From Nemopilema nomurai (lineage: Eukaryota; Cnidaria; Scyphozoa; Rhizostomeae; Rhizostomatidae), in contig ML133383.1 of assembly GCA_003864495.1 (NCBI GenBank), positions 889,560 through 953,559 of the forward strand: a stretch of 64,000 nucleotides of DNA. Reading direction: 5' to 3'. Of this stretch, positions 1,931 to 55,600 are shown one piece after another. The position numbers and the translations under genes were made by a program. The notes beneath the pieces were generated by a model that saw only the letters and a list, made by a program, of their open reading frames with translations, was not told where the DNA came from and made no database searches. Within the stretch, counting starts at the first letter, position 1, and every line of letters starts with the position of its first letter.

Positions 1931-4736
1931 CTACATTTTGATATCTTCCTCTGGGTCTTCGACCTCGTTTTCATCATCTTCTGCCTCGTCTAGAAGCTGA
2001 AGCCTTCTGGGAACGTGGAGTCTCTCTTGTCTTTGGCAGCGGTTGCGGGGAATATAATTCTTTATGTCAGGGTTGCATGTTGATGAGTGCTCGCAACAGC
2101 TAAAATAAAAATTCGTCAGAGGGTAATGCTAATGATGTGTTTGTGATTTTACTTTTTAAGGAGTTCCTAATTTCACCTGACATTAAGTGTTCTTTTACAT
2201 ACGTTAAGGGCTATGCTCAACATCATCTTATGGTTGAGCCTTTTCGTTAGGTACAGTCTTGGAAGCCTCCTTTTTTCTCGTTGGAAACTCTCCCCCTCCA
2301 TTTTCTATTTCCTCTTTCCTTTTTTTCGGCTAGGCCCCAAGACCTTTCATTCATTCATTGGGCTTTCCTTTATCAGGTTTAAAATCTTTCACGTTTAATG
2401 GTAGAAAACGAGCAAGGAGATAAAGATTATTACTTCAACTTTTGAACCGATTCTCTCTTTGGCCTGTTGGTGGTCGAAGGGGGAGGGGGGTGGGGGTGTG
2501 GCAGCTCAACGTTTTTCGCTAATAGGTGCCCGGAAGGGATCGATAAAACTTATCTGCCAGGATGATATTTCTTAAGAAAACATGGGTGTCTCCCAAGCAT
2601 CAATTATTAGAATCTGATTTAATTTTACTTTTGATTAACATCTCAATTGGCATTCATATACTCCATGCTTTGCCTCTGTATACGTACAGCATATCAAGGC
2701 CATGTTGGCACTCCTAAGACCAATCATAACAGTTACCTGCGGCAGCACTTGTCGCAAAAGACTGTTCGCCGTCTGAAGCAGCGCCTGTACCTGGACTTAA
2801 TGAATCGTGAGTACACGCGAACTACGTTGCACCTTGGCAGCTTTTTGTTTCTCCTGTTAGCTGCAAAAAGAGAATATGTCCATCAGTAATCGAACTGGCG
2901 AATTGGAATGCTTTGAACACGTGTGAAGAAATGTGAAGATTTTAAAAAGGTTTAATAAAGGCAGCCACTCCTAGATGTTTGAATAACAAAATCAAAGTCA
3001 GGACCCCACCAAGTTGAATAAATTACAGAATATTTTTCCTCCTTTCCTATTATTTATAAACTTTCTATTTCTTTCTACATGGCTTTAACAAGTATTTTGC
3101 TCTAAAAGAAGTGTCTACCGGCCCCTCCATTTTCATTTTACCCCGGCCCCGAGATAAAACCTAGCAAGATCATTTACTGTATGGGAATACGATCCATAGG
3201 AAGAATACGTCATGTGTTCTTCCATCGTACTTGTTAAAACTATTCAAAAGAGATGCTTTGGTTTTGTATACGATTTTACTACAAAAATATTGCCTAGCAG
3301 CAACAACTTACGATTTACACATCGCCCTGTCTCAAGGTCGCTCTTGGTGCTACACACCAGTCCCTTGTCACACACGCCACCAATGTTCCATGGTCCCCCA
3401 CACTTTTCACCTTCAACTTTGGCACAGACTGTACAGCAGCCACATGCATCACGTGTTGTTCCTCCTGTCAAATTAAACCAATTGCATGGCTTTATAAAAT
3501 TTCCTATTCAGTTAACGCTGGACACAGAACCTGCGCCATACATCCTAATTAGGTAAAATATTGCTTTTGTGATGTGTTTTAGATGATTGTGTAGGTGAGC
3601 AAAGCAGGTATATCATTTAGGCCTTTGTATCTGAGGATCTTTTCATGACTTTGTTGCTGTTGTTGTACCGTTTTCGGTGATTCCATTGAAAATGATTCGT
3701 TTTCAAATCACTCGATTTTCAAATCACTCCGTTTTCAAATCACTCCGCTTTCAAATCACCTGTTTTCAAATCATTCCTTTTTCAAATCACCCTGTTTTCA
3801 AATCACTCCTTTTTCAAATCACTCCGTTTTCAAACCACTTCGTTCTCAAATCACCCTGTTTTCAAATCATTCCTTTTTCAAATTACCCTGTTTTCAAATC
3901 ATTCATTTTTCAAATCACTCCGTTTTAAAATAACTCCACTTTCAAATCACTCCGTTTCAAACCAACTGTTTTTAGATCACTCCACTTTCAAATCAATCTG
4001 CTCTCAAAAGCGTTATCAAATGTGTTTGTTTTTGCTGCGTTTCAATGGCAGCCCAAAACGAGGAACATCCTACTCCGTTTCCGTATGAAAGTGGAGAACT
4101 GAAGTCATTCATTCGAACCGAGTCCAGTCTATTATGGTGGCTGAGAAGATTATGAATACAAGGCTAGCTAGCAATAACGTTGATGTACTTTGCAATATAA
4201 TAGATTATGTGACATCATGCAAATGTCACTCTTGTTTCTTCGTGATGAATCGGTATAAGTTTTAAACACAGGATCAAATTAAACGACCATAACCATAAAT
4301 TTCACTCAGAAGCTACACGACTTCTGCGTTGTTGAAAGATCCATGTAATTCTCTGAATACCTGGATTCACATGACTCAATTGAGCAATTGCAGCAACAGC
4401 TGACAAATATATTTCACGTAAGTCTGTTCAAACACAGGGCTACCAAGTTTACTTGGATTAGAGGTCACCGCTCTACATAAACTGGAGCTTTACGGGGCTT
4501 TCCCCTTCTATAACGCTTCAGTGAACTGATGATTTGGGGGCTAAGTAAGTAAACTTGATATGACAACTGTAAAACTAATAAAGGATGTTTATAAAGCTTT
4601 CCATACCCTTACAGCCTAGCGATTGCACATCCGGGCATTGTTGCTCTTCACATCGAAGGCACGTCAATGCAGATGTCCCTCGAAGCAGGCCAATGCAGGC
4701 CAATGCAGCTCCCAACAATACCACAAAGGCGTTCAT
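1931..4736 (-). CDS. Secreted IGFBP-domain protein with C-terminal cystine-knot-like domain (CCN-like)
   Basis: Four exons on the minus strand join in frame to 191 residues: 4607-4736, 3312-3464, 2737-2860 and 1931-2099, with intron phases 1, 1 and 2. Exon 1 encodes a signal peptide ([18 protein letters not shown]) and the first IGFBP cysteines. Exon 2 completes an IGFBP N-terminal domain with the diagnostic CGCC followed by C-x6-KCGG. Exon 3 is very basic, and exons 3-4 form a second Cys-rich domain (about residues 98-153) with FC-x2-CC-x2-CC-x-H-x-S-x-CNP. A 16-residue gap between its first two cysteines and the FC-x2-C, CC pattern recall the C-terminal cystine knot of CCN proteins, but the terminal C-x-C is missing. 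The tail is strongly acidic ([15 protein letters not shown]). Known: CCN proteins are IGFBP-VWC-TSP1-CT matricellular regulators; this would be a minimal form without VWC and TSP1 (inference). The gene faces PFDN1 tail to tail. The gene model is firm, the CT assignment is tentative. Confidence 0.85.
3690..4010. repeat. Short tandem repeat, about 16-17 bp, in intron 1 of the IGFBP-like gene
   Basis: Roughly 20 imperfect tandem copies of a unit close to TTTTCAAATCACTCCG. Copies differ by single substitutions (CCTG, CCTT, CCAC variants), showing an old, drifting array. It lies wholly inside the first intron of the gene on the minus strand and also keeps a spurious low-complexity frame open on the plus strand. 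Confidence 0.9.
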
Positions 4737-5119
4737 TTTCTCAAATTTCTTGACAGAACTAGTTCAACTGCTGATGCATCCACGATTAGTCTTGCCTCAA
4801 ACCCTCTTTTATTTACTGCCCAGGGTATTGGCTTGGCGTTAATGAGTAATCACGAGTATCCTTATTGCATATGGCTGTGATACCAGTAAAGGAAAGGCCG
4901 CTAAAACGATTTTTAATTATGCTGTAATTTGCCATTTCCCGGCCAACCCAGCCATCCATTGGCGTTTAATTGGCAATTTGTTATGCTTGGTGTTTAAGTA
5001 TCTCACAGTGTCCGCACCACCTTGATGTAACTTAGAGATTAACCCGTTAAATCATGGGCGTAACTAGCAAACGTGTATGCAAGCATGGCTTACAAAGCAA
5101 GTCCAGCAATTAATTCTAG

Positions 5120-5480
5120 AAGTTCTTATTTTGAAGAAGTTCTTCTTTTTGAGAATTTCTCCATTATAAGAATCTCTTCTTTATAAGAATCTCCTCTTAT
5201 TAAGAATTCCTTCTTTTTAAGAATCTTTTCTTTTTAAGAATCTCTTCTTTTTAAGAATCTCTCCTTTTTAAGAATTTCTTCTTTTTAAATATTTTTTGTA
5301 CGAATTTCTTATTTTTGAGAATTTTCTTCGTTATAAGAATTGTTTCTTTTTAAAAATCTCTTTTTAAGAATTTCTTCTTATAAGAGCTACTTCTTCTAAA
5401 GAATTTCGTCTTTTCACAAGTTTCTACTTTTTAAGAATTTTTCTACGTACAAATTTATTCTTTTTGCGATTTTCTTCTTT
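5120..5480. repeat. Degenerate tandem repeat, about 17 bp, TTCTTTTTAAGAATCTC type
   Basis: About 20 diverged copies built around TTCTTTTTAAGAAT. Each copy contains a small palindrome (TTCTTNNNAAGAA). The array lies just upstream (minus-strand sense) of the IGFBP-like gene, about 400 bp from its start codon. Units vary in length by one to three bases. Confidence 0.85.
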
Positions 5481-5637
5481 TCGAGAATTATTTTTTCGAG
5501 AATTTCTGTTCGTTTCTGGGCCAATAAGTGGTCCCTTCTTCTGCCCCACGCTCAATTCGCTTGGGAGAAGCTTCAAATCTCCAACTGAAACAATATTATT
5601 CGCAAGAACAAAGTGCACTTGCTACTGCAGGTGGAGT

Positions 5638-5805
5638 CTGTGTCTTTCTTTCTTTCTTTCTTAAGTTCTTTCTTTCCTTCTTTCTTTCGTTTTTACTTTC
5701 TTTCTTACTTCCTCTTTCTTTTTCTCTTTCTTTTTCTCTTTCTTTCTTTCTTACTCTTTCTTTTTTCCTTTCTTTCTTTCTTACTTTTTTCATTTCTTTC
5801 TTTAA
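5638..5805. repeat. CTTT microsatellite
   Basis: Long (CTTT)n tract with occasional CTTA and TTTTCC interruptions on the plus strand. It explains the Phe/Leu/Ser-rich and Lys/Arg/Glu-rich open frames on the two strands, which are not genes. Confidence 0.95.
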
Positions 5806-6337
5806 ATCTCACGTTTAGCGACATGTAAATAATTTATACGTGAATTACTGCGGCGACAAAAACGTTATGCATTCGATTTGTTATGGCAGGCTGGCCCGAC
5901 ACAGGGGGCTGAGGGTCAACGAAGGGCCCGCTGACTCCATTTACAGGGACATAGGAAGTATCTATAAGTAGGGGTCACCAAAAAGGGGTACATGATCATT
6001 CCGATTTTTGAACTTGGAAGGACTTATTTGGGTTCCACAGGGGCACTTTGGTATGGTTTGCCAAAAAGTGGGGGACATGACCCCTCTGCTCCTTTGTTTC
6101 CACGTCACTAAACCAATCCAACGAGATGAACTGCCATGGTTTTGTGGAGGGAAAGGGCAATACCCCCTTGGTACTATTCCTCAATGTTACATTCTATAGC
6201 CTGCTTTGATGCTTGCACTTCAGCCACCACAATTTTCTTCGGGGCATCCCCGCACAGTCTCTTAATCCTCTGCAAACAGCCATCAGCAACTGTTGCATAA
6301 CCTTCCCTGTTTGCGACAATTGTCAGCTTTCAATCAA

Positions 6338-6468
6338 GGGCTCTGACGCAGGTTGAAAAGTGGAGGGGCCAAGGAAGATTTTAGCAATCATGACAAAAGA
6401 TATTTAGAAAAGCTCTATTGTTTTACAAAAAAGTGCGGGGGCCATGGCCCCCCCTTCGTCGGAGGCCC
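6338..6468 (+). mobile_element. Small inverted-repeat element, copy 1
   Basis: Begins GGGCTCTGACGCAGGTTG and ends CGTCGGAGGCCC, so the ends are near-complementary. The interior carries GGAGGGGCCAAGGAAGATTT and a C-rich tract. A second copy in opposite orientation lies at 6795-6899 with the same interior. The short length and terminal inverted repeats suggest a MITE; no target-site duplication is evident. Confidence 0.6.
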
Positions 6469-6794
6469 TGTAACTTGCGTTTTTTAAAAAGTCATGTTGT
6501 CCAGACGCACGCCAGTCGGTAAAACAGACCAACTGCGAATAGACCGCATGATGCCACCTGAATTAGACGCGGGTTTGACCCTCACAGGATTGAGCCGCAC
6601 ACCCTCAGGTTGGGGCCAGTAGCGGCCAGGCCAAAGTCTCAGCATACCCTTTAAATGCTAAGGGTGCTGTGGATGGGGGTTGGGGAGGCAGCTGTATAGT
6701 AAAATTACTTGACTCGCCCTTTGATGTACATACGTATTACAAAAGTTTTGAATATTAAATGTTGCATTAGTTATCTGGAAGAGTAGTCGTTCTC

Positions 6795-6899
6795 AGAGCC
6801 TAAGACGAAGGGGGGGGGGGGGGCTTTTTTTAAACATCTTTTGTTATAATTGTTAAAATCTTCCTTGGCCCCTCCACTTTCCAACCTGCGTCGGAGCCT
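6795..6899 (-). mobile_element. Small inverted-repeat element, copy 2 (opposite orientation)
   Basis: Reverse complement of the element at 6338-6468 over almost its whole length, including the GGAAGATTTTAACAATT interior, with an expanded homopolymer G run at about 6810-6826. It ends CGTCGGAGCC. Together with copy 1 it makes a large inverted repeat with arms of about 105 bp and a spacer of about 325 bp. Confidence 0.6.
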
Positions 6900-8497
6900 A
6901 TGTTTCTGTGCATCAGTTCGGTGCACTTTCTAATATCCCTTGAATTAGCTAAGATTCAGTTCACCTGGTCTACAAATTACATTATTTAACAAATATTCAA
7001 GTGCCTAGTCACGATTGCTCTGTCTCAGCTTTTTCTGATGGGCTTTATTGAAAAAGTTAATTCAATTTTTCATTTTGGTTCTCGTCCTGGCTGGATGGAA
7101 TGCGTACGGTTTGTAATATGGAGAATGGCCGAAAAATGAATGGTGACGCGAATCCATAAATAAAAAGTTCCTTCTTTTTTCTGGTATAAAATCTTTCCTG
7201 GCCGCTACACTTCATGCGTGCGACAAACGGCATTCGAACGTGGCATGGACGTAACCTTTCACAAGGGTCTTCGACAGCAGATACATCTAAAATATATCCT
7301 ACACGAATAAAAACAACACGTGGGCAACATGTGAAGCACAGAGAGAGACGATGGTTTGTTGCTATAAACTTGTCATATTATAGGTAAACGTGGGTGACAC
7401 AACGTGTCGAACGGAGCGAAATACGAATGGTCAACGAAAACGAAAACGAATACGAAAGAATACAAAGGGGATTAGTATTAATATGTGTAAGCGTCCGTTA
7501 GGGTCCAGACCCCGGTACTAGGGCCCAGACTCCAGTACTTGACACAACAAGACCTTTCTCGAGCATCTTGCCCCTAAAACGATGCATGTCTCAGGTGAAA
7601 TGCTTGCTGCTAACAATCCATGATTCGTCCCTTAGAGAAAAAGCGCCTCGCTCGACTTTCTCCAATCTACCTCTAACTTTAATTCTAGCTATGTCTTCTA
7701 GCTACTTTAATACATGCCCAAAATATAATAAAACAAAAACTAATTGAAATACTACAGGTTATTTATATACATAATGATAGCTAATACAAACGATATTACC
7801 ACGAAGATCAATCAAATAAACTGAATAATGATACCAAATATCCCTAGAGAAATAACTACTTAATCAAAATGCGCAATTAATTAACAAAACGAAACATTCG
7901 AACGCACCAAAGGCATTTAATTCCAAGGTATCAATTTACAAAAAAAAACGAAATCAAAACTAGCACTATTACAAAAAAATCGTGTTTTTATAGTCTCTGA
8001 TTCCACAAATCATTTTCCTCTTTCCTCTTCACATGAAATCACCAGGACTTATGAAGCAGTTTGTAAGAGCGCTTGTCAAGGCGGGTTGATGCTTTGATGA
8101 CAATTGCAACCCTTTCCCAGACCAAAGCTCAGACGTAATCAAACATAGAGGATGATAGCTTTCTGTACTCGATGAAAGCTTTTGGAATCAAATGCCTTGA
8201 ATTCGATTGTTTGTGTTATCAACAACTTATTGGGTAACCACAAGCAAAAAACTGTTGTGTTGCTTTTGGAGAATGGTGCCAAGATGAGGTGCCCTGCACA
8301 TTCTGAATGGTCATTTAGACGGAACTGAAGCGATGTAAGATATGAAAAGGGTGTTTGAGCGGAAACGCCTCGTTCCATTTTGTAGGGTCCAGGCCCCTCC
8401 CGGGTTAACACGTGTCTTCCTCGCCTCCAATATAGTTAGTTGCTCAAACGTGTGTGGCCGTTTGTCCACGTACAAACCTATCACATGTAAACATAAC

Positions 8498-8800
8498 CAT
8501 AGGCGCCGACTTTTATTTTTCCCAGGGGGGGCTCAAAATTTAAATTTTAAAAAAATTAAAAAAGTTAAAAGGTAGAGAAATTACCTGTCGCTTTAATAAC
8601 GTAATACAACATATGTATTATGTATAATAACAAAACAAAACATTTTAATAAAGCAGATATAACATCATGGTCTTCAGTATCATCAGTTCAATTCTTTGAT
8701 TGATTTCAAACGAAATTCCCAGGGGGGGGGGCTGAGCCCTCCCATAGCAATTCCCAGGGGGGGCTCGAGCCCCCAAGCCCCCACGTAGTCGGCGCCTATG
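8498..8800. mobile_element. hAT-like MITE with intact TIRs and 8-bp target duplication
   Basis: A 303-bp non-autonomous element with perfect 14-bp terminal inverted repeats, CATAGGCGCCGACT at 8498-8511 and its exact complement at 8787-8800. It is flanked by identical 8-bp direct repeats AACATAAC (8490-8497 and 8801-8808). An 8-bp duplication is the hallmark of hAT-superfamily insertion. The interior has G-rich CCCAGGGGGGG blocks and no coding potential. The perfect TIRs and duplication imply a fairly recent insertion. Confidence 0.9.
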
Positions 8801-8808
8801 AACATAAC

Positions 8809-10171
8809 GAAAAAGCCGCCGTTGTGTAGACAGAAGGAGTTCGTTTTCTCTCTTGGACTCTATTGGTAATTTTTCTTTAGGCTCGCGGCACTGATTGGTC
8901 AACTATACCGGTCTTGTGCTTGCGTCTTTCTGATTGGCTTATTTCGATCCACAACTGGGTATACATTTTCCATCGTGTTTTTCGGAACCTTATTCTGACG
9001 TTTTATGCTCTGAGGAGTGTCAGACGAAAAAGCTTTGAGTATGTCGTAAAATGTTTGCTCTTTACAAAGCCATTTTCAAAATTTATCACATGTATCTTAA
9101 TAAATATAGTTATGTTCTGTTATGATAAATATATATGGAAGTCAAAGCACGATTTCTCTGTGACTCACTCATTCAAATAGAGGGAGACAAATTTACAAAT
9201 ATGTAACAAGAACAATGCATAGAGATCCTATCTGAGACAAATGACAGATGACTAATTATTGGTAAAGCATAATAAAAAATCCATATAGTCACCCATAAAG
9301 CTCAATCTCCAGTGAGAAAAGTCTTGCGAAATATTTCCCGCGAAATATTTCCCACGAAATATTTCCCGCAAAATAATTCCCGCGAGAAATGTGCAGGAAG
9401 TTGCATCAAACCCGAAATCAATTAACTACACTCCCCTCCTTGAAGTATTCGCTGTCAGATATCGAGACTTCATTCACAAATAGACTGATGTAGTGACTGA
9501 ATTTAAAATGTGTTTTGTTGTGTCAGTATAATAAGCCCTTTCTGTGAGCACCTTCCAACCGACTTTGATGATAAAAATAGGTGGTAAATTTTCATGCAAA
9601 TGTAACGTAATTTTTGTTGGTCTATTGGGTTCTTCTTAAGATGGTGAAGATACGTTGGATGCGATGGGGCTAGGCCAATGGGCCTAAGACCCGAATAAGT
9701 AGAACGCGAGAGAGACTCTATTCCGATGTTGTCTATACTCATTTAACAGCAAGACTAACTCAAACGTGACGTGATCAACGTACATACTAACAAGAACGGA
9801 AGGTAATTAAGAGAACAATACGAACGTCGCAATACATGTTGACAGACAAATGCCATTGCCATTAAAAAGGCGTTAACTAACACAACAGGACTCAACAGCA
9901 CGCGTGACTATAACACGCAACTGAAATATCACGAAATATAAGCAGAAGTGAAAAGCGATATCAGCAAAATCACACGAAACTGTTACACGTTCTTCGAAAA
10001 GTAGGTAGCAAGACCTGTTTTTAGATTCATAGGTGCAAAGGACTTCTATATTGAATGGGTTTTAAGTTGAAGGAGTTGACCCCAAAACGTGCTTAAAGTA
10101 GTTGCAAAGATTTTAATTTCTTAAACGACGATCCATTCATTTGTCCACTTGTACACCTACACAATAGTTCT
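8809..10171. other. Gene-free stretch
   Basis: No supported gene. It holds a short array of GCGAAATATTTCCC units (9318-9385), about four copies of a 14-15 bp unit. It also holds a fragment of a dispersed repeat at 9004-9033, read on the minus strand and shared with 13373-13420 and 42026-42076. Confidence 0.5.
9318..9385. repeat. Short tandem repeat GCGAAATATTTCCC
   Basis: Four adjacent imperfect copies of GCGAAATATTTCCC, the last diverged to CAAAATAATTCCC. The units contain a TTTC/GAAA palindrome. Confidence 0.8.
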
Positions 10172-10352
10172 GTACGAGCATAGTCAATAGAAAAACACTG
10201 GTCTGGAAAGCCGGCAAACATCAAAAGAATATCTTATTGTTAGGATTTTTGAAAGTCACGTGACATTATCCGTGCACACTGCTTCGGCCACTACTCTTGT
10301 ATGCTTTGATCGTGGATATATATCATGTCAATTTTATCATGCCCGGCGATAA

Positions 10353-10607
10353 TGGTGCAGTTTTAATTGTGGAAGCAGCCGTAGAACGAAAGGTATTGGA
10401 ATTTTTAAACTTCCAGCGGCAAATAACGACGAAAAAATGAAATGGAGGGAACTTCTCCTGAACGAAATAACGAAGAGCAGGGTACTGGACAAGGCCTTCA
10501 AAGAAAGAGTGAAAAATGACAGAGTTTCTATATGTGAAAAACATTTCCTACCAGAGCAAATAGAATTTTTTAAGTATCTAGCTATTGATTTGATGTTAAT
10601 AGCCTAG
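10353..10607 (+). pseudogene. THAP-domain remnant of the transposon
   Basis: Open frame with the THAP signature: C-x3-C (WCSFNC), then GIFKLP, then a central W in KMKWRELL, then C-x2-H in SICEKHFLP. The frame has no in-frame start: a TAA sits at 10350-10352 just before it, while an ATG at 10339 is out of register by one base, so a single-base indel seems to have broken the N-terminus. THAP zinc fingers in P-type transposases bind subterminal DNA. It closes with TAG at 10605-10607 after leaving homology. Family call firm, function lost or spliced in a way I cannot see. Confidence 0.7.
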
Positions 10608-11295
10608 TTAAATTTGTGATTTTCCTATAGTATACCTTTTTCATAAACATTTACTCGATCATTGAAAGATCGATCGCGATTGAACCTTGAAGCCAGCGGT
10701 TAGGAGCCTAGGCCTGTCTATTTTATCATGAGTACATTTTCAGGCCCCAAACAATTTTAAAACTGTAAGCCCACCCCTTTCAATATGAGTTTCGTACCGA
10801 CGACACTGCATGAATTTCGTACCGACGGCACTCAACAATAAGAAACTCAACAAATCCTCTCACAGTATGTTAAAGAATATTTATCAAATGCAATTTCAAA
10901 ATTGCAATTTTGTTAATGGTACAAATAATTTTAAATGCCTAACCGATTTTATCACAGCGAATAAAACAAAGCAAAGATAACTCTGGGGGCCTAAGATCGA
11001 TTCTGAGAAAGCTACTCAAGCTAATTGAAAGATTTGATTTATTGAATATGTGAAACTAGTACAACATTGGAAACTGAATTGGTTCTCGCTGAAACCTTGG
11101 GTATCAAGGATTTAGTTTGTCTCAATCGTACATTTACTTTGATCTTACAAAATCTACCGATGTATACCGATGTTGATGTCTCCATGCAGAAAGCATACCA
11201 ACAATCAGGGTCCGAAATTTGGCCGATAAGAAAAAAGAAAGCTGAACAGCATTGCCGACTTAATGGAATTAATTTTCTGATCTTTCAGGAAAAAA

Positions 11296-11580
11296 TTAAA
11301 AAACGGAAGTATTTTCATCAGTGGTAAATTTTGTTGAGAGAGCAAGCAAGATGGAAAGAATCAACCAGTAGTTGTTGGAAATACGTACGTGGCCCTTATC
11401 AGTCATTGATCGGTTTAATCTTCTACTTAGGCGCACTTCATCGTCAAACTCATGTTGCAAACTCTCCTCTAACTCCAGAGCCTCAAAGATTGCGTCCAAA
11501 TTTTCATCTGATACCTCTGAATTTTCATTATGTTGGGAAATTCTACGAGAAGATCTGCGACGTTCGTTGTTTTCTGCCAT
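11296..11580 (-). CDS. Acidic hypothetical frame inside the transposon
   Basis: Starts at ATG 11578-11580 as MAENNERRRSSRRISQ and continues with an acidic, helix-prone stretch (NLDAIFEALELEESLQHEF) for about 60 residues. After MTDKG the composition changes, and a splice donor may lie there. It begins just inside the right terminal inverted repeat and runs inward, mirroring the THAP frame at the other end. I do not recognise the family. It could be a second element-encoded protein or the far end of a transposase gene read from the opposite promoter. Confidence 0.35.
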   Translation of the reverse strand: MAENNERRRSSRRISQHNENSEVSDENLDAIFEALELEESLQHEFDDEVRLSRRLNRSMTDKGHVRISNNYWLILSILLALSTKFTTDENTSVF

Positions 11581-11720
11581 TATAAAACACTTCCGTGCAA
11601 GGTTGTGCACGGATATTGTCACGTGACTGGAGAATTCAACATGCTTTCAAATAATGCGAAAAGCCCTTTGATGTTTGCCGGCCTTCCAGACCAGTGTTTT
11701 TCTAATGACTATGGTACGAG

Positions 11721-12605
11721 CAGGCTTCATCCCGTCTGATGAAATACAATAGCCACCAAAACTACCGCTGTCCGCTGAAAAACATTAGGTAAATTAGCCT
11801 CGGAAAGGTGAAAGCCATTCGAGGCCATATGTGACGTCACGTGCAAGTTGGTGAGGGTGGCATAACTAGCAAGAAGATAATCAAGAGTGCAGAGCATCGC
11901 CTGTCCCCGCGACTCTTGGGATCATATAGAAACCAAGATTTGCACCCCACCCCGCTATTTCTCTCTCTCATCATCTCCATGCATCTTTCACTCACAGTCT
12001 CTATTGTTCCTTGTTTAATCCGTCGTTAATTTTATTGTTGTGTAAAACAGCCACATAAAGTCAACAAAACTTGTTTATGTTTTGTCGCGTTAATCGCCTC
12101 AATGGTTGAAGCTGACGTCAAAGAAACAGCATTTCGAAATGCATACCCGTGTTGCCATAGCAATGTCTGGATTGTCGATTGCACCAGTTGTTCAACCTCG
12201 TATGCATATTCATCACTGCTTTACCCATAGAGTAACTCAATGGCTTTACCACTGATGGTGATCTCTATTCTGTGGCTTCACGGTGATCTCTATTCGGTCC
12301 CCATTCTAAATGATTCTGCTGCTAGGTTTTGATTCGCTTACAAGTTCGTTTGGTTTGTGCATTTTTGTTTGCATTTTCCTGTCCTTTTAAGTCCATTCTC
12401 TCATTTTAACGTTGTGCAATCATAATCTCTGTTGCGCAAATGGTATTGTGTTTCTGTGAGGCTTGTTTTCCGCTCTGGTTGGGTAACGACTAGCGGCTCA
12501 CGGCCCACGGCCGCCGTTGTCTACCCCTGCTACCGATTAAATGCAAAACAGCTTCATTCGAGTCTCAAGTTTTCGGGGCTTGGTGCAATTTGCGAATCAG
12601 GACAG
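11721..12605. promoter_or_regulatory. Upstream region of the oxygenase gene
   Basis: No other gene is evident. The frame of the oxygenase exon stays open upstream to at least 12432 but has no ATG before 12606, so this part is probably 5' UTR. Two short near-repeats of GGTGATCTCTATTC-type sequence occur near 12257 and 12281. No clear TATA box was found. Confidence 0.3.
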
Positions 12606-15600
12606 ATGTTGTCGTTAACAAAGAAAATGCTTGCTAGTTTCCAGGCGAAAACCGTAGTAAAAAATGCCTTCTTCTTTGCACGGCATTCTTCGGCGATGCT
12701 TGCTGTTGGTAAGAAGAAAACAGAGGCATTTTCTGTCATAGAACCGGGAGAGATGAGTCTTCCATCGGCTGTTCAACTTCGGGGTCGTCGATTTCTTCCA
12801 GGAGCAGACAAGGACTCGTTTCCGGAACACTTGAGTGGACCGAGGGAGGATTTTCCTTTGGCACTGAGGGCCCAAGGCGATTACAGCATCCAAGAGTGGG
12901 GCAAGTTATGCAGAGAGGAAGCAGACGCGAATTTGCTGCAATACGGAGCGATACTGTTTAGACAGCTGCCTCTGCAATCAACAGCGGATTTTCAACTCCT
13001 GTACCAAAGTATTGGCTATCCTGCCATGAGCTATGTAGGAGGTAGTGCCCATAGAGAAAACATTTCTGCGCAAGTTTATTCAGCGAGTGACGAGCCCCCT
13101 GATTGCTGCATCGATCTTCATAATGAGATGTCCTACTCTCCAGTGTTCAACAAGAAGGTAGGCTGAATTTTTTTCTCGCAAACAGTTGATATGTTTGTGG
13201 TTTGATCGTGGTCAGTTCAGTTGTGCTGGCTGTATCATCAATAGGTAAAATGAGGCCTAAAGACCAAGGTATTTGAATTTCGAAATGGAAGCAATTATTA
13301 AGTTTAATACCTAGATATTGGCATTTGGAAATTAGAACATCACAATTGCTAGAAAAAGCGGAACTATTTTTCGCATACTTAAAAGTACTTTTTTCGTCCG
13401 ACACTCCTCAGAGTATGCAAACGTCGGAAGATAACCAAAAACTGACCGAATAAATAGCCAGATGCGGATCGAAAACACTAGAGGGTGATAAGCAGAGCGC
13501 GTGATTTGTTATAATTGAAATTAGAACAATAATAAAACCCAGAAAGTGGAAGAATTACGAAATGCGTCAGTCAAGATTTTCGTAAGAGAATTAAAGAGCG
13601 TAATCTGTCGTTAGCCATGTCAGTTGATGATTAAAGTCAGAAACCTCTCCTGTTATAACCCACAACGAATGCTGGATTTTTCTATAGCATCCTTATCTTG
13701 CGGTGACCCAGTCAAATACGGCATCCTGGATAAACCGGACCCTAGGACCCCTTTTAGGGTCCTAATGCGCTTAGTGCTGAAAGCAAAAAGGCCCTGAACA
13801 ATAAGATATGTCACCACTTCCGCACAGCTTGGTATTCGCTTGATCTGTTGTTATCTACCAAATCGAAACTTGATTGACCGGGGGATACCTTACGTTCATT
13901 AAAGCTTGGCCATGTAACTCAACCATGTAACCAAACAATTATTGTGTTCAGTCAGAGTAGCGTACAGTTAGGTAGACCTCGTGTTATCAAACGAACGCCA
14001 TTAGGAAGGGTCCTAGGGTCTGGTGGCATCCTTCATATTTCAGGGTCCTTTTAGGGTCCTGTTAGGGTCCTAGGGTCTGGTGGCATCCTTCATATTTCAG
14101 GGTCCTTTTAGGGTCCTGTTAGGGTCTGGTGGCATCGTTCATATTTCAGGGTCCTTATAGGGTCCTGTTAGGGTCCTGTTAGGGTCTGGTGGCATCCTCT
14201 ATATTTCAGGGTCCTTTTAGGGTCCTGTTAGGGTCCTAGGGTCTGGTGGCATCCTTTATATTTCAGGGTCCTTTTAGGGTCCTGTTAGGGTCCTAGGGTC
14301 TGGTGGCATCCTTCATATTTCAGGGTCCTGTTAGGGCCCTAGGGTCTGGTTTCTCCAGGATGCCGTCCAGACTGAATGCCACACCCCGCTCGTTTGACTT
14401 CGCAACATCCGGTTCAGACTAATCACACGAGACAACCAACAAAAATGTAATGCAATTTCTTGATTACTTTTGTAAGGGTTATGATTACTTTCAGAAAAAA
14501 ATGTAACTTGTCCTGCAGGAAGGGTAAGTTTGCTATCAAAAAGGCAATTTTTCTATCAAGAATGGGCAATTTTGAAGTTTAAAGAAAAAGATGGGACAGG
14601 GCCTTGTTAAATAGACTACAAACTGGATGGTAATACTTCTTCAATCGTTTTCTTCAAATTGTTTCTTTCAAACTCAGTCGGTATATCAACATGGTTGGTG
14701 AGGTGCTATTTTATGGATCTGAAGTTGAAGTGCACTGAACAATTATAACACTCAATAACGTGTTTATGACTACATTAAAAATTAGAATATTTGAGTAATC
14801 CATTCCATGACAAATTATAAAAAATCCCAGTGCTGAAATTTTTCAAGCTACTCCAGTTTTTTGGGGAAGAATAGTTTTTTCTAATCTGTGAAGCGCTCAG
14901 CAAAGCCAGTCAAATGGAAAATGAAATTCGAAGAAATTCAAAGAAATTAAATTTTTCAGTGTTCACCCCTTTTCATGTTTTCATCATACAGATTTTCTTG
15001 CGTGCAAATAACATTCGTGACTGGTCGAATGCGTAATTTCATACGAACATGCTATTCATGTAATGCTTGTATAGAATTGTCACTAATGACCTCATTGATG
15101 AGGTATTGTTAATGCTCTTTGTGCTATTTGAAAGAAAGGTGGAATAATAGAGCGGCTAGGAAAATCTGGTGAATTTTCTCACGCAATAAAATTTCTGTTT
15201 AACATAAAAAGGACTGTCTGACACAAGTGTAGTTGTTTGACCCCATTTTAATAATTTCAGCCAAGGCACCAGCTTCTGAAACTTAAGATCTTCAAATCCC
15301 TTTATGAACGATTCCATGGTTGTCCTCGTAGTAAACATACCCAACTGGGCCATATAGGCGTCGGTACGATTTCTTGGAATCATCATGCTTTTTTAGGCCC
15401 AAGTCAAACGTCGTTCTTCTCATGCGCCGAACCTAAAAGTAGTATCAGGCGCATGGGAAGAGCGACGTTTGACTCAATTAAGTGCAGCAGAATCAATTTG
15501 GAGCGACAGAATCAATTTGGAGCGACAAAATCAGTTTTGAGCGGCAGAATCAGTTTGGAGTGACATCAAGTCGCAACCCGGGCCTTAACCAGTTATGGAG

Positions 15601-17286: not shown

Positions 17287-17418
17287 AAGGTATCGCTCAA
17301 AGCTGTATTATCTTGTGAAGCCTTCAATCCAAGAAATCTTCCCCACAACACAAGTCAATATTCAAATCTGAGAACCGCTTTGCTCCAGTTGCTTTAAGTA
17401 TTGTAGGGAGAAGTAGTG

Positions 17419-17424
17419 AATAAA
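17419..17424 (+). terminator. Polyadenylation signal of the oxygenase gene
   Basis: AATAAA 133 bp after the stop codon at 17284-17286, on the coding strand, the expected position for a short 3' UTR. Confidence 0.6.
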
Positions 17425-40219: not shown

Positions 40220-40640
40220 TGCGATACGGGGGGCAATTGAATAGAATTTAGAATCAAATACAAAAGAGTATGGGGGGACAATTCAAAAAATTCTAAATGA
40301 TAAGACCAAAGAAAACGGGGGGAAATTCAATAGAATTTTTTTCGAAGTACAATGAGATATCGGGGGGCAATTCAAAAGATTCTAAATGATAAGACAAAAG
40401 AAAACGGGGGGAAATTCAATAGAATTTTTTTCGAAGTACAATATGATATCGGGGGGCAATTCAAAAGATTCTAAGTGATAAGACAATAGAAAACGGAGGA
40501 AATTCAAAGGATTTTTTCTCGAATAATAATGAGCTATCGAAGGGCACTTCAAAAGATTCTAAGTAATTAAACAAAAAAACACTCGGGGAAATTCAATGGA
40601 TTTTTTGCAAAATAAAATGAAATACCGGGCAATAGAGTAT
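40220..40640. repeat. Minisatellite, 89-bp unit made of two related halves
   Basis: About four to five tandem copies of an 89-bp unit. Each unit is itself a diverged dimer of a 44/45-bp motif: GGGGGGAAATTCAATAGAAT and GGGGGGCAATTCAAAAGATT with purine-rich linkers. The period is exact between the block at 40317 and that at 40406. Copies decay toward the right. It marks the start of a purine-rich region on the plus strand. Confidence 0.85.
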
Positions 40641-43600: not shown

Positions 43601-45325
43601 TATTCTTCGAATTTTTCAAACGGGAAATTTTGGCATTCAAAGTATGCAATCAAATTAAACGAAGCCTTAAAATCTTCGAAAGGGTTATCAAAAAACGACT
43701 TTGACATCTTTGCTGTTCAATTCACCAATATTCTCTTTATTCCCCGTTAATGCAACACTTGCCAACAAAGTTGGAATAACATCATCACTTTAGGGTGGCT
43801 GTACAAAATAAAAGTTACGTTTTAACGAAATGAACCCACTCTGACTTTTTTAAACTAAGGCGATACTGTGCTTCAAGTATCTTTCGAAATCTTCAGGAAA
43901 AGACCCAGCCCAAAATTTCTTATGAAATCTTAAAAAGTATTATTTCAAATAGAAGTTAAAATACTGACCAATTCGAGTTTTTCAGCAATGATGGTGAACA
44001 TCTTTTGGTGAATTCCATTCCTATTTCATAAGATGCAGTAAACTTGTTTATGCTGAGTGTTCTTAATTTTTCGAAAAACTGAGGCTGGATTGTTCTTAAT
44101 TCGTTCTTGGGCTTTTCAAGATGGTTTCACACTCCTGCACCACAACTCATGCATAGCCCTGCATGATTTTGGCAATGACATCGCAAAAATAGAAGCGATA
44201 CGTCAGCTAATGTCTTTCAAGGTTGAATTTTAAAGTACCTCGGCAACCTCACGCCAATTTTTAGCCTCATGGTCTTGTTAAAATAGTGCAACATCGTTTA
44301 GAGTTCAAGGTTTAGATCTATAACTTCCCTAAAAATTGCTTTCAATTGATTTCAAGTCACCCAAACATGTCAAAATTCTACTTACCATTATAATTGTTCC
44401 ACATTTTCACGCGATTAGACCTTTGAATTCGCCTAAATTGTCTTTAGCCTAGGAAATTATCAACTCAAGTTGAACCAAATGGGTTCTAAATAACCAATGT
44501 CTTGATGAGCTTTGATTTCTCCTCCTTGGGTAGATGCAACTTTACACAAAAACACATTGGTACATTCACATTCTCAATAAAAATGTTTTCGTCTCAACTT
44601 TGGCATCCTCTCTACTACCTCAATTGTGTTTAGCTTAAGAAATTCATTCGAGGATCTGCTCATTCTTGAGGAACTTTTACTTTCAGTTCTTGGTAGTGAA
44701 CACCAACACCAAGTTTGGACCAGACAAATTAGTGCATATGCTGAGTTTTCTAAAAATGGAGATAACACTTGTTCTCTAGCCTAGTCTACATGTTGGCAAA
44801 AATTCCAGCCTTTTACTATCAACTAAGCACCTTTCCTCAGATAAGCTACCTGAAAACTCTTAGGTTTCATTCAACTTGTCCTAATAGCCTCAAATAGTTG
44901 AACTTAAATGTTTCATTTGAAAAGGTTACCAAGCAAATGCATATGTACCCACCAATGGCAAATATACCCAAACTCTGAGGAACAAATATACCCTGATCCC
45001 AAAAGTACAGATGCAACCAACCCCCAAAATGCAGATAAAACCAAATGAATAGTCCATGTGAAAGATATACAGGAAAGTTTATTAGAAATCCACTTCAGAA
45101 TTTCCCTAATACTTTGTTGAATCAGATAATCATACTAAATCTCCCTTTCTTATCAAAGCTTGGCTACAAAGTTTGACAATTGATAATAAAAATACATTTT
45201 CAGGTATTCCTAAACATGGTAGAAACAATGTTCCTTGTTACAAGACTCTTTCCTGTGCTGGAGCGGTCACCATAAACTTCTCTGTTTATCTTCCAAATCA
45301 ATTTTCTTTAATTGCGTCATCATAT
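40641..45325. other. Gene-poor, purine-rich stretch (to about 43.4 kb)
   Basis: No supported gene. From about 40,000 to 43,400 the plus strand is A+G-rich without a fixed repeat (AGAAAAGAGG, GAAAGAAT words). This is the opposite skew to that at 28.6-31.2 kb. A copy of a dispersed repeat lies at 42026-42076. Confidence 0.45.
42026..42076. repeat. Dispersed short inverted-repeat element (one of three copies)
   Basis: TTTTGCATACTTAAAGTACT followed by GTCCGACACTCCTCAG and AGTATGCAA, so the ends TTGCATACT and AGTATGCAA are complementary. The same block, with upstream GCTAGAAAAAGCGGAACTA, is at 13349-13420 in the same orientation. The GACACTCCTCAGAGCATA part recurs on the minus strand at 9004-9033. 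It is about 50 bp between the inverted ends, with conserved flank outside one end. Confidence 0.7.
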
Positions 45326-48523
<3,198 letters not shown>

Positions 48524-49642
48524 GTTTTCGTTTCACACTGCCACACGCTTCAAGATGTACAGAAAGAGGACTAGTTTTCCCATGCGCTTCCCGACATTCA
48601 TTTCGGAGTGTCCCGGATGATTGCACCACGAGGCTGAAAGCTGGCCTCGCATTAGAGTCTATGACGTCATACCAACTATTCAATTTCACAAACGCATATT
48701 GTGGATAGGAGACAAAATTTGAATATTGCATTTAGCAATGTACTTTATGGTTCTACGTTTTCTGTTTGTCTTCCCGATGCAAGGAATCTTCATACGGGTT
48801 ATATTGAAGAATTTTAAAAGATGGCCTATTAGAAAAAATATTCCTAGGTGTATAATGTTTCTCAACACGAAATAGAGAAAATAACTAGCCTAGCACTTTT
48901 CAGCATTCAACATCTTTTTGCTGTTTTCCATTTTTAATTTCCAAATGATCGATTTATTAGATCTTGCTTTAAGTACTGGGATTAATTTCCTTTTAGCGCC
49001 GTTTTACATTCTCAACTTTTAAGTGAAACACACCAAACCCTGATAGTATGAAAACATACAACAACAAAAACTCTATTCATCGCTAAAATATCCAGAAAGA
49101 AGGCACAAACGGATATGTGAAATAGAGGTTATTAGTAATGGCATCAGTAGCAAATTCATTTTCCTAGAAGCACTTCTCTTAAATACTTTCGTACTGGACA
49201 GAAAGATAACTGTGCCTACGAAGGAATTGCCCAAGATAAAATCACAAAGTCCACTCATTATATCCATTATTATCTTTTATCTCCAAATCTGTTGTGCTTC
49301 ATATATATTTCCACCCCGTTCTGCTTTTGATTATCTTTATCGAAAATGGTGCCTTGTCCTCAGAGTGGTTATTTATAAAACCTCGGGGGGACAAGTTGCC
49401 CCATCCACCCCTGATTTTCTTGTTTATACTATTTTGTAAGTCGACTTCTGTAACAAAACACCAGTGGTTATAGAAATGTTTCACTCACCGGACAAATAAT
49501 CACTCAAATACCGCGGGATTAAATACAACTCTTTGCACCGTGGGTCGCCATTGAAAAGAAATCCGCCAGTCGTTTACTATTCTTATGTTTCCGGTGTGGG
49601 ATCACGAAAACTTTCTTCCATCAAGAATTAACAGCTTCGGTT
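48524..49642. promoter_or_regulatory. Shared upstream region between divergent RPS27 and the WAP/Ig/Kunitz/Kazal gene
   Basis: The two genes point away from each other, so this 1.1 kb should contain both promoters. I see no clear TATA box. Short open frames on both strands lack homology or splice partners. Confidence 0.35.
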
Positions 49643-52600
49643 ATGAATGCTTCGACTGCAGTTTTGCTCTTGCTGGCTTTTGTAATTTCGAGACAATATG
49701 TAGGTACGTGCTTAATTCAATTGGTCATTTTTTCATTGGTTGTGAGATCCGAGCGAAAGGAAGTTTTTCTCGGTTTTAAGCTCAGCTGGCTTCGGTTTTA
49801 GGCCCTTTTGTTAGGCCCACTGTTTAATAAAGTTTTGCACCTTGAGCGACAACCTAAAAGGTAGCTGCTCATTTACATGGCGGTTTACCTGAGAAGAATA
49901 TAATTGCTCCTGAAATATGCCGTCTACTATGAAAAAATTTCTTCCCTCTCGAAAGCTTCATTCACGAGAGCAGCTCTATAATAACAGAAATATTTATGCA
50001 GGGGAAAACCTTTTCGGTGCCAAGGCACTGTTATCGATATGGAAAAAGCCAGCTCTATGATTCACAAGGGTGACCCTTGTAGAATAAACCACCCTGCTCC
50101 ATTCACGCAGAAATTGGTACGTCTTCGAGATAGGCTGAGCAGTTTCTCGAATTCCTGTTAACGATGGCGAAGTGGCTAAAGGGTCGGGGGTCAAATTAGA
50201 GAAAAAGGGACGCCAAAATTGCTTGTTTGTGATATATTTCTTTGTAATACATAGCCAAAATATATAGGAAGGGGTGCAGGAATCTGATTGGTTCCCTCAG
50301 AGAGAACATAGTCACCCCGCCACTGCCCGATTATAATTTGTGTTAATAATTTTTTTTTGGGGGGGGGGGGGCAAAACCCTAGAACTGCAATACTTAGGGG
50401 ATTGGCATTATTTACGTAAGCTTTACAATATGTTGAACTTCAGAAAAAATTCTGTAGAAACAGTGTCAAAGTTTAGGATTCCGGTTAAGTAACAATCTGA
50501 ACTTAACTTGTGAAACTTCTGACCTTTGAAATATGACAATGATACTGGTCAAAAGCTAAGGATCGTTGGATCTAGGGTGGCCAAGTTTATTTTCGCGTTC
50601 TTCCAAAAAGATCTCTGTTACACATTTAAAACTAGCATTACAATAAACAATTTTGGCACCCCTTATCTCTAATTGCGCCCCTTTTCAGGGAGACATGCCC
50701 CTGCCTCTCTTGTTTTGGGGACAAACCCCAGTTTTTGTTGTCGAGCTCCATTCCTTTATCTGTGCCTGTACATTTCATGGCGTGTGTCTTTCATAAGACT
50801 CACGCATAACTTCCCCTTGAACAGTAGTAGTTCCAAGCTCTTTTTCTTCCATCAGTTCCCTTTATCCTGCCGAAGCCCGGAAGCTGCCCCATGTACAAGG
50901 TCATTTCGGAAAGCGCCCTCTGTGAGCAGGAAACTGCGGAGTGCACCCTAGATCAGTTTTGCCCGGGGGACCTCAAGTGCTGCGAGGACGAGCGCTGCGG
51001 AGTATCAAAGTGCATAAAACCGGTGGTCGAAATTCTTCCAACCCGTCCTGCAGGTAAAACTGGTTCTAACCTTCAATCAGGCAGGAAAATAAATTGATAT
51101 GTCACACATAATGAATGTCTTATGAAATATAGAGCGGTGGAAAAAGATACATGAATAGCTGCTTTTGTCAGATGAAGGGAAACATTGTACTTTTCTTTTG
51201 AACTTTGTACCTTTAACAACAGTAATTTTTACGGAAATTAGCTTTTTTGTGAAAAAGGCCCATTGTAGATATTGTTCCCTAGCATTTTCAAGTCGATCTT
51301 TCTCCTGCTCTTAGATCGTTGCCCCGTTGAGGATGCGTATCAATCGACTGGTTGTCGGCCCTACGCTACCAAGTTTTGCTTTATATCTAAATGTCAGAGG
51401 TAAGTTCAATGGAGTTTAGTAAATTGGACGGATCGCTGTCGTGATGTAGAGGAATTGTGTACAAAAGTCTGTGCGTTATTGGCAACTTACATTGCTGAAA
51501 TATGAAAAGGGGGCTCATGATTTGCTTGAGAAGAGCAGAGCAATGGCATGCAGTTAGGCCCATCATGGTGCTGCCATGGCAACTTATCTCACAATCACCC
51601 AGAAACGAGGCTGACTGAGAAACTGGCTAGTCCGTAACTTGCCAACGTTGTTGTTGTGATTTCAACTTCCAGGAAGAAAACAGTGAGGGCATTCCTAAGC
51701 TACTGGGAATTAGGAAGAAAGAGTAATTTAGAGCGAGAAATTTAAACAACTTAAAATCTTATTGAAAGGCTCAAGAACCACTTTGATATTTTCACATTAT
51801 CATCAATGGCAATTGCAAAACCATCATAAAATTGTTTTAATGGATAGCATTAGGCCTGGTTTCCATATAACCGTATTGCGGCGTGAAGTTGTCGGCGCCA
51901 GTCCTCTGCCATTACCCACGGCCACTAGAATATTGTGCCGCAACCATCGTGGCTGTAGTGGGCTGAGGCTGCCGGAGATAACCGGAGAAGTGGTTTCCTT
52001 ATAAGTCATATAGCTGCAGCATGCTGGTGGTAATTATACCGGCAATGGTTGAGACAACCTTACTATAATGTTTTAGGAGCTGATCATAGAGAAATGATTG
52101 TATAATCACTATAATACCAACTGTATATGAACTCGATAGATATCTAACTGGACAAAATAAAAAAACACGCGTGTACGAGATTGCATGCGCGGATTACATA
52201 CGGGACTTAGTGTACATACGGGATACTGATTATGTGAAAATTACAATAATGTGAAGATGTGTTGTGATGATCTTTCAAGGCTATGTGGAAACTGGGCCCG
52301 AGAGAGAATACAGAATCATTTGGTGTTCTGTTGGTGCAGTTTCTAAAAGCTTCTCCCTTCCCTTCTTCATGCAGGCATTCATGACCAAGAAACACGTCTT
52401 CAAAGAGATTTTAGAACATGATCGCTTTTCCTTATAATAATAGGATTGCAAGGTAGTGAACCTTTTTGGAAATGTAGTTAACAAGAATGACAAAAGCAAT
52501 GTTAACTTTTTAAGCCACGCTGTTTTTCCAGGTGTTGCACACACACGAGCAACTGTAATCCAGCAAAGGATGTCTTGGTGAAGTTTGAAGAGTGCAAACA

Positions 52601-55600
52601 ACGTAAGTTATGATGATCCTTTACAAGTGTCTAAAGATTGTAGTTTAATGACAGGTAACAAGTAGCAGGGACAAGTTTAATGACAGGTAACAAGTAACAG
52701 GGACAAGTTTAATGACAGGTAACAAGTAACAGGGACAATTTTAATGACAGGTAACAAGTGACAGGGACAAGTTTAATGACAGGTAACAAGTAACAGGGAC
52801 AATTTTAATGACAGGTAACAAGTAGCAGGGACAAGTTTAATGACAGGTAACAAGTAACAGGGACAATTTTAATGACAGGTAACAAGTGACAGGGACAAGT
52901 TTAATGACAGGTAACAAGTAACAGGGACAAGTTTAATGACAGGTAACAAGTAGCAGGGACAAGTTTAATGACAGGTAACAAGTAACAGGGACAATTTTAA
53001 TGACAGGTAACAAGTAACAGGGACAATTTTAATGACTGGTAACAAGTAACAGGGACAAGTTTAATGACAGGTAACAAGTAACAGGGACAAGTTTAATGAC
53101 AGGTAACAAGTAACAGGGACAAGTTTAATGACAGGTAACAAGTAGCAGGGACAAGTTTAATGAAAGGACAAGCTGCATAAGGAATAGTTCATCTGATATA
53201 ATGCTTTGGATGATTGTCTACAGGACACTATTCGAATATAACGGCATGAATAAAGATACGATAATAAGATTGGTCCTGAAGAATAAGTCCTGGATATGTA
53301 GCATGCAATCTAAAGCAAATCCGCGTTAAATAGAGATACAAGTATGCTTCGCTCACCAAGGTGGTCAAGCAACGTCCCATCTTGCCCTTAACTCTATCTC
53401 ATAATCCCCTTACTCCCTCAATACTCACGTTTACACATCACGTGTACATCACATGATACATCACGTGCTACACCACCTGATAGGTCATGTCATAGACATC
53501 AAATGTACCCTAGTATAGGTTTACTTAAAATAAGTCTCTCTGACAGTAAGTAAACTATATTAACAGCTGGTACTTAAGACATGTTTTGCAAACAAGTTTT
53601 GCTCCTAAGATTCTACTTAGGCCTTTAAATGCTTTCAAAATGAACAACTGGCTCTCGATTTATCACATGCATCATAAGAAGAGAGGTGCACACGACTTTA
53701 TCACCCCATTTCATGGTTTGGTCTTTGAAAAACTTTTATACATAAAAGACATATTTCTTTACCTGGTTTAGTTCCCTTTTGTAACTTTTCAGCCATTTTG
53801 ACCGCCTTATTCTCCATCTACTTCAATTGTCATACGACAAAAACAATTTGTATATAGCGAAAGGTCTTCAGCACAGCACCTTAAGCAAAACTGTTTGTTT
53901 TCTGTTTAGGCACACCTATAAACCGCACGAAGAGCATGCTAGCTGTAAAAAGTGGACAATCAGTCGTCTTGGAGTGCCAATTGCCAAAAGAGAACTCTCT
54001 GCGACGTTGGTCGAAGATAGTCAATGGGGAAAGCGTTTATTGGACTGAGGCCCAAACTGAAGTCATTGACAAGGACTTGGTGTTGAAAATCTCAAAAGCT
54101 GTTGTAGCTGACAGTGGGCAGTACTTATGCGAATCTGTGTACCATGGAATGAAGTACGTAAGAGAAGTTCAATTAACAGTGGATGAACCAGGTAGCTTTA
54201 CGTTAGAAGTTATTTCGCTTCAACATGTACGAATTACCTGTTAGCTCACACCCAAATTTCTCCCGGCAGATTATTTTGCTGCTTCATCTTTGGCAATGCA
54301 AACGCAGATGACATGTGCAAAAGCACTTGAGCAATAATTTTTCTGGTTGTCTTTCAAGATTTCCATAGCTATACCAAGCTGCTTTAGATGTTTTAAGTTA
54401 CATACATTGTAGCTCCTGTGTGTATGACCCCCTCTTTTACCAAGTGCTCGAGTGATGATAGATTTGTCTTTTTATCTCGGCAAATTTTTCTAGATAACTA
54501 TGAAAATGTTTGCTTGATGGCTAAAGTGGCAGGAAATTGCAGTTTCAACTTCCAGCATTATTACTATGACGTAATAGACGACAGCTGCAAAGCCTTTCAA
54601 TATGGCGGCTGTGGCGGAAACAATAATAATTTTGCAGATATTTCCACGTGCGAGCAAAAATGCAAAGGTAAAATATTTCATACAAAGTATTATTGCTTCT
54701 ATAGTTAATGATACAGACTGGAAAATCCAAAACATTCATGACTGAAGCTAAGATCAAACTTTTTAAGGGTTACTTCCCCTTTCGTTGATCCCCAACAGGG
54801 TGATTGATGATCAGCTGGTTACAATGAAGAACCTTCGTTTTAACTTGCACATCAGAGATTAAGTCGCTAGTTTTTGTGGTGGGGCCCCAATTTCACTTAA
54901 ATCTGTCATCTCGAACTTTGGTTAAGATGAATTGCTCCTCATTGCTATTGCCCAAATCCCTTGACATTTGCCTTTAGTCAGTCGATTTCATGCATTTCTC
55001 CTTGGTAGAAATGGCACATTAGTTTACCTCTGTTCTAGGGACACGACAGTCATGTCCTAATATGACCCAAGCCCCAAAAGAATGTCCCAAAGATGTCACC
55101 CATGAATGCGCGAATAATGAAAATTGCAGTAGTAGAATGTCTTGCTGTTTGGTCGGCTGTATGCGCAAATGCATCGACCCAAGCAAGCCTCCGACTTTGA
55201 TGCCACAGACTACATCCACCAAGGCACCTCCAGTCACAGCAAGTAAGTAGAAAAATGCTATCGAGTAAATACTATGCCTGTCAAAATTATTAGCACATTG
55301 ATAAAAATTCTTTGACTTGCGTTCGTTCGTCTCTCTAACACCCCCCCCCCCCCCCCCTACAAAAAATGTTGTATTGCTGCTAAACGAAGCGTCAATTTTA
55401 CACCAAACTTTTTCCCCAGATTGAGCGAATGCTATACTTTGTTATCAACATTGCTTTAGGGGGGAGAGTGGGGGGTTCACAGCTATGGGCCCGTCAAAGA
55501 AATGAAAAACGCAAAAACAGGAGAAAAAACTTATATGTTCCAAGGACCTTTGGCAGGCATTGTAGAAGGAAACAAAAATTTCAAATAGCTGTTTGATGCA

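Follow-up and report, generated by a model that had tools for sequence, protein, structure and literature searches.

A 64,000-nucleotide stretch of contig ML133383.1 of the jellyfish Nemopilema nomurai, referred to here as the window, carries two genes for secreted proteins that share a cysteine-rich module, which we call X (X1 for the copy in gene 1 and X2 for the copy in gene 2). Our analysis suggests, with a probability of roughly 0.7, that X is a previously undescribed extracellular domain, about 52 residues long and with eight cysteines conserved, that its coding sequence is a pair of exons with intron phases 1-2-1, and that it was copied between these linked genes. The module stands in two different contexts, behind an IGFBP-like domain in gene 1 and between WAP and Ig domains in gene 2.

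Gene 1 lies on the minus strand, and its four exons encode 191 residues comprising a signal peptide, an IGFBP domain, X1 and an acidic tail. At E<=10 the Pfam scan of gene 1 returned the IGFBP domain alone, with no match to VWC or TSP1. Gene 2 lies on the plus strand; its nine exons encode 521 residues in the order WAP-X-Ig-Kunitz-WAP-Kazal-Kazal after the signal peptide, and every one of its introns is in phase 1 except for the phase-2 intron within X2. Consensus splice sites flank all four module exons, whose coordinates and phases agree with the original prediction (Table 1), as do the entry of both copies at phase 1 and the phase-2 intron immediately before the CC pair. This intron cuts the codon preceding CC, which specifies Ser in gene 1 and Arg in gene 2. 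The X2 exon pair is 85+71 = 156 bases long, that is 52 codons, and has phase 1 on both flanks. X1 lies at the 3' end of gene 1, with phase 1 upstream and no intron downstream.

Both genes have orthologs that carry the module where the window exons place it. The gene 1 ortholog, P0001, is a protein of 190 residues from Rhopilema esculentum that matches over the whole length and is 75% identical in the module-bearing part that was searched. Gene 2 is represented by P0002, a Rhopilema protein of 528 residues with 61% identity and the record name agrin-like isoform X2, and by P0003, with 524 residues, 46% identity and a source in a 2,217-base JGI contig that is probably a transcript, since its length is too short for introns like these. 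The source names of the module-bearing proteins ('agrin-like', 'cysteine-rich motor neuron 1 protein-like') say nothing of the module. In the comparison of gene 2 with its most distant ortholog, X is 58% identical, close to WAP1 at 64% and above Kazal2 (54%), Kunitz (53%), WAP2 (42%), Kazal1 (40%) and Ig (30%). X is constrained, because all eight X2 cysteines are retained in both gene 2 orthologs, though it is not always the most constrained domain of gene 2.

The first line of evidence that X1 and X2 are the same domain is their common cysteine order, TxFC...C-x2-CC-x-H-x3-CNP...C. Across the two window copies and the three orthologs, 13 columns are invariant: the eight cysteines together with T, F, H, N and P. 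The original prediction described the core as CC-x-H-x-S-x-CNP; the CC-x-H-x3-CNP framework is kept throughout, while the S is missing from P0002 and P0003. Alignment of the X1 and X2 profiles by hhalign gave a probability of 94.1 and a score of 37.06, which was reached by none of 300 shuffles of the X1 columns with cysteines fixed (maximum 30.5) and by none of 300 full shuffles (maximum 22.3). Thirteen other cysteine-rich domains of this genome gave at most 2.1% by hhalign. Smith-Waterman scores for the six ortholog pairs were in no case reached by any of 2000 full shuffles, and were reached by 12, 13, 4, 0, 0 and 0 of 2000 cysteine-fixed shuffles. MAFFT run on whole proteins aligns X with X unaided, and the shared place and phase of the intron is support that does not depend on sequence scores. 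Together with the hhalign score beyond all shuffles, the cysteine order and the intron bear out the proposal that both genes encode the same domain, and we consider X1 and X2 almost certainly homologous.

Several observations weigh against this interpretation of X. The two copies are only 33% identical, and in single-sequence searches of the genome the gene 1 query recovers only itself and the gene 2 query misses gene 1. Run with an X2 profile, a search of 10,076 reading-frame pieces gave X1 no better values than E 3.3e-4 and 5.8e-3. X1 is outscored there by an intronless sequence, L011/L012 (E 5.2e-5), which owed its place in the set to an X2 search. The hhalign profiles are shallow (Neff 1.2-1.6), and one cysteine-fixed shuffle rose to a probability of 87, so the hhalign probability alone is not decisive. 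Structure predictions were of low confidence, with mean pLDDT of 35.5 and 34.0 and, for the second of the two, 22-28 over X, and no fold was obtained. In the comparison with Rhopilema, five of the six other gene 2 domains are better conserved than X at 60% (Kunitz 74%, Ig 66%, WAP1 65%, Kazal2 64%, Kazal1 62%), the exception being WAP2 at 53%. Finally, X2 has a charge of +3 and is not notably basic, so that matrix binding would not be a function common to both copies.

The low identity, the cysteine bias and the probability that cysteine-fixed shuffling alone can produce are what would be expected if unrelated cysteine-rich domains had converged and the intron were a coincidence. We regard such convergence as very improbable, however, since no cysteine-fixed shuffle reached the hhalign score, the TxF, H and NP residues common to all five sequences are not cysteines, and we infer that an intron would match in both place and phase by chance about once in 170 (58 codons x 3 phases).

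Homology of X1 and X2 leaves two histories to be weighed. Genes 1 and 2 are about 45 kb apart, with both module copies within about 51 kb, and the genes are otherwise unrelated, one being an IGFBP gene and the other a WAP/Kunitz/Kazal gene. A module flanked by introns of the same phase, with a length of 3n, has a form that is taken as a diagnostic mark of exon shuffling (PMC8001218), and X2, with phase 1 on either side of 156 bases, is such a class 1-1 module. The exon pair may have been copied from one neighbour gene to the other by recombination in introns, an event that would predate the split of this species from Rhopilema because the orthologs (58-75%) are closer to each other than the two copies are (33%). 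Alternatively, a whole ancestral gene could have been duplicated and its other domains replaced afterwards, a history that fits the distance of about 45 kb, the shared intron and the homology equally well. It is nevertheless a rather unlikely one, as the remaining domains are unrelated (IGFBP over two exons as against WAP in one), more steps are needed, and exon shuffling predicts just such a symmetrical 1-1 form. That the pair of exons passed from one of the two linked genes to the other is, on the sequences at hand, likely. The records of the two Rhopilema proteins give 8,174,362 bases as the length of the longest contig; this is presumably one and the same contig, and linkage of the two genes would therefore be conserved there. 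The original prediction spoke of a mobile exon pair. The symmetrical 1-1 pair in gene 2 agrees with it, but mobility as such holds weakly, with two copies and one inferred transfer; the location of the two detected copies within about 51 kb suggests a single local transfer.

The module had also been likened to the C-terminal knot of CCN/CTGF proteins and proposed as an undescribed short cystine-knot variant. The module is indeed undescribed in the libraries searched, but the cystine-knot part was not supported. X had no Pfam match, PF00007 and PF00341 included, in any of the five sequences at E<=10, with filters that drop most weak matches, and it had no match to an NCBIfam profile or a PDB sequence at the same threshold; a PDB search with X2 alone returned nothing beyond a pair of Kunitz peptides (E 4.1 and 5.3). 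The comparison with the Pfam CTCK profile was thus negative for every sequence. As had been predicted, the closing C-x-C is absent and an extra cysteine precedes NP: X stops at the cysteine after NP, downstream of which gene 1 has no further cysteine and gene 2 continues into the Ig exon. In CCN2 the ring of the knot is closed by the two cysteines of the C-x-C, C323 and C325 (PMC10326224). The VxF-x-EC feature put forward as CCN-like occurs in the window copy of X2 only, the corresponding residues being LVPYDEC in P0002 and LLPPDKC in P0003. Taken together, the sequence tests applied do not support a cystine knot.

A more specific form of this idea is that X is a truncated knot from a CCN-type CT domain whose last strand and closing C-x-C have disappeared. 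The sequences of the CCN CT domains and of VEGF-A used in our comparisons are unverified; a PDB search with the CCN2 sequence returned VWF alone, at E 0.02 and 0.07, and no chain of a CCN protein. X has its first cysteines in the same order as the CTCK domain of CCN2/CTGF, and X2 and CCN2 are locally alike over the GC...KFC...RCCT-H stretch. Smith-Waterman scores with CCN2 were reached by 3, 10 and 7 of 2000 cysteine-fixed shuffles for the three X2 sequences and by 14 of 2000 for P0001, which is a marginal signal. An IGFBP domain stands ahead of the module in gene 1, as in CCN proteins. Gene 1, like the CCN family and IGFBP-related proteins, has a single N-terminal IGFBP domain, yet it departs from the CCN order of IGFBP, VWC, TSP1 and CT, with X and the acidic tail following IGFBP directly. 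With window X1, the CCN2 score was reached by 281 of 2000 cysteine-fixed shuffles, and in fifteen comparisons with CCN1, CCN3 and CCN4 by 20 to 1378 of 2000. The hhalign probabilities against CCN CT domains were 6.7% for X2, 0.4% for X1 and 10% for a joint profile, as against 94% between the copies. Moreover, none of the six CTCK domains detected in the genome has the internal phase-2 intron of the module, because their reading frame is open across the CC pair. Given these values, the missing C-x-C, the unmatched PF00007 and the loss of VxFxEC in the orthologs, we reject CTCK membership and regard a truncated CCN knot as improbable. One survey found no CCN homolog in Hydra (PMC6610741).

Similar reasoning applies to a cut-down knot of the PDGF/VEGF type (PF00341), with which X shares a local C-x2-CC-x5/6-C spacing. 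A similar spacing occurs in a PDGF-family exon of this genome, L041, which reads CVSLKRCAGCCTVAREC and whose score with X was reached by 58 to 150 of 2000 full shuffles. The agreement between X and L041 is one of cysteines only, because 816 to 1015 of 2000 cysteine-fixed shuffles reach the same score, and hhalign gave 1.9-4.5% against L041 and 0.5-0.8% against the unverified VEGF-A sequence. With no PF00341 match, no similarity beyond the cysteines and no closing C-x-C, membership is rejected, and we consider this origin barely credible. Two further PDGF-family-like exons, L042 and L043 (C157:148486-148707 and 185588-185773), lie about 37 kb apart; in them RCxGCC reads RCQGSQG or RCNGSVG, the CC pair is missing, and L043 is below the Pfam cut-off.

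Genome-wide searches, which covered the 213-Mb assembly, gave no convincing third copy of X; these searches were limited and blind across introns, and absence is not proved. The pattern CCxHx3CNP had four matches in the genome and none in the control. The two outside the window were rejected, L017 with a stop inside the motif and L016 with a stop directly after it in the DNA read by hand. An exon-4 pattern with an acceptor site had 16 matches compared with eight in the reversed control; a stop follows within 26 codons in 13 of the 14 that lie elsewhere than in the window, and the remaining one, L051, is open and unlike X. The exon-3 pattern showed no excess (54 matches versus 50 in the control), one of its 52 matches outside the window having been read in context and some of the unread ones being in frame; L060, a match to this pattern, was rejected for want of a convincing exon in its surroundings. 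A consensus query of the genome recovered both X2 exons and X1 exon 4 (E 0.049) and missed X1 exon 3, and a further match at E 0.16 was discounted for its two stops. Queries with the X of P0003 found gene 2 only. Pattern searches of viral contigs (55 stretches) and of genome contigs (22 stretches) yielded nothing that was confirmed.

A further candidate was L011 (about 1501-1596; C67:1667666-1667761) with L012 (C163), which matched an X2 query at E 0.009 with 47% identity to window X2 over 32 residues. Its Smith-Waterman score was 82 with window X2, and 54, 44, 33 and 30 with P0002, P0003, gene 1 and P0001. Three cysteines are missing, there is no intron and no DNA similarity beyond that of shuffles, and the two copies are identical over 211 bases; we take it to be probably a chance match, and likewise L013 (E 1.28 with an X2 query). 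An X profile run on stretches about 17-19 kb downstream of the three other IGFBP matches of the genome gave nothing better than E 0.28. Near 814 and 7097 of L026 (C55) there is an IGFBP gene followed about 6 kb downstream by a cysteine-rich open frame (RSCQAPCQHTTCQACYF...) with no match to X, and near 2564 and 4245 of L022 (C133) an IGFBP exon is followed about 1.7 kb downstream by a Kazal-like open frame, the two perhaps forming one gene.

Protein searches relied on shared five-residue words, so that absence elsewhere is weak evidence. The search with X1 found one relative, the X2 region alone found none at E<=0.01, and whole gene 2 found three, the third being turtle WFIKKN2 (E 1.8e-7, covering 10%). 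The module-bearing proteins so far are jellyfish-like sequences only, and a literature search returned nothing recognisable as X. GASP/WFIKKN proteins contain WAP, follistatin/Kazal, Ig, two Kunitz and NTR domains, and a Nematostella protein of 292 residues has Ig, Kunitz and two WAPs (PMC3427181). Gene 2 resembles GASP/WFIKKN in its WAP, Ig, Kunitz and Kazal/follistatin-like domains and in that third match, but the order and number of its domains differ, X follows the first WAP, and we do not place it in that family. NTR is not among the Pfam domains listed for P0002 and P0003. The Nematostella protein may be nearer to gene 2 than GASP/WFIKKN is. Like other class 1-1 shuffled extracellular modules, X occurs in secreted proteins and, as X2, is flanked by phase-1 introns; it differs in its internal phase-2 intron and in the two copies found.

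Table 1. Exons of the two module-bearing genes, in window coordinates.
Feature	Position	Strand	Basis
Gene 1 exon 1: signal peptide and start of IGFBP-like domain	4607..4736	-	splice sites, phases; PF00219 E 9.3e-9, above Pfam cut-off
Gene 1 exon 2: remainder of IGFBP-like domain; phase 1 in and out	3312..3464	-	splice sites, Pfam
Gene 1 exon 3: X1 first half; phase 1 in, 2 out	2737..2860	-	splice sites, alignment, ortholog P0001
Gene 1 exon 4: X1 second half, acidic tail, stop; phase 2 in	1931..2099	-	splice sites, alignment
Gene 2 exon 1: signal peptide	49643..49703	+	splice sites
Gene 2 exon 2: WAP domain 1	50856..51053	+	Pfam, splice sites
Gene 2 exon 3: X2 first half; phase 1 in, 2 out	51315..51399	+	splice sites, alignment
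Gene 2 exon 4: X2 second half (CCTHTSNCNP...C); phase 2 in, 1 out	52532..52602	+	splice sites, alignment
Gene 2 exon 5: Ig-like domain	53910..54191	+	V-set E 3.7e-5, just below Pfam cut-off
Gene 2 exon 6: Kunitz domain	54494..54667	+	Pfam E 2.3e-15
Gene 2 exon 7: WAP domain 2	55039..55242	+	Pfam, splice sites
Gene 2 exon 8: Kazal/follistatin-like domain 1	56932..57168	+	splice sites; Pfam domains of ortholog P0002
Gene 2 exon 9: Kazal/follistatin-like domain 2 and stop	57696..57949	+	Pfam domains of ortholog P0002

Elsewhere in the window, a tandem array with units near 32 bases (taacaagtaacagggacaagtttaatgacagg) occupies positions 52640-53170, in the intron directly after gene 2 exon 4, and short repeats of the type gatttgaaaacggagt lie at 3680-3960 within gene 1 intron 1. 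On the minus strand at 62448-63947 there are open frames bearing motifs of the ABCG transporter type, such as LFLDEPT.

The most likely mechanism would have the module act as a small binding domain stabilised by disulfides, and not as an enzyme or a cystine-knot hormone of the classical type. In the product of gene 2, X and WAP1 would then both contribute to a multi-headed protein that inhibits proteases or binds ligands and is built like GASP/WFIKKN. X1 has a net charge of +17 in 66 residues and is followed by an acidic tail of -9, and the basic module might anchor the IGFBP-like protein of gene 1 to sulfated polysaccharides of the matrix. Past the signal peptide, the proteins of gene 1 and its ortholog contain 21 cysteines each, which in gene 1 are divided between the IGFBP part (12) and X (nine), and this odd count predicts a free cysteine or an interchain bond, which would allow a disulfide-linked dimer. 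Binding, inhibition, matrix attachment and dimer formation are all guesses at the function of X, and doubtful ones.

What is new here is a module without a curated profile in the libraries searched; what is familiar is its type, a cysteine-rich 1-1 module, with a narrow range so far. Many shuffled extracellular modules are too old for their donor, acceptor and introns to be traced. It is tempting to go further and see in X a new domain family of the jellyfish line with a disulfide fold of its own, a shuffle of an exon pair between neighbours that can still be traced, and a covalent dimer driven by X in gene 1, a combination that we put forward only tentatively. The main point of interest is the traceable transfer of an exon pair between linked genes: with the module present in two linked genes and interrupted by the same intron in both, the transfer would be datable and its direction could be read from outgroup genomes.

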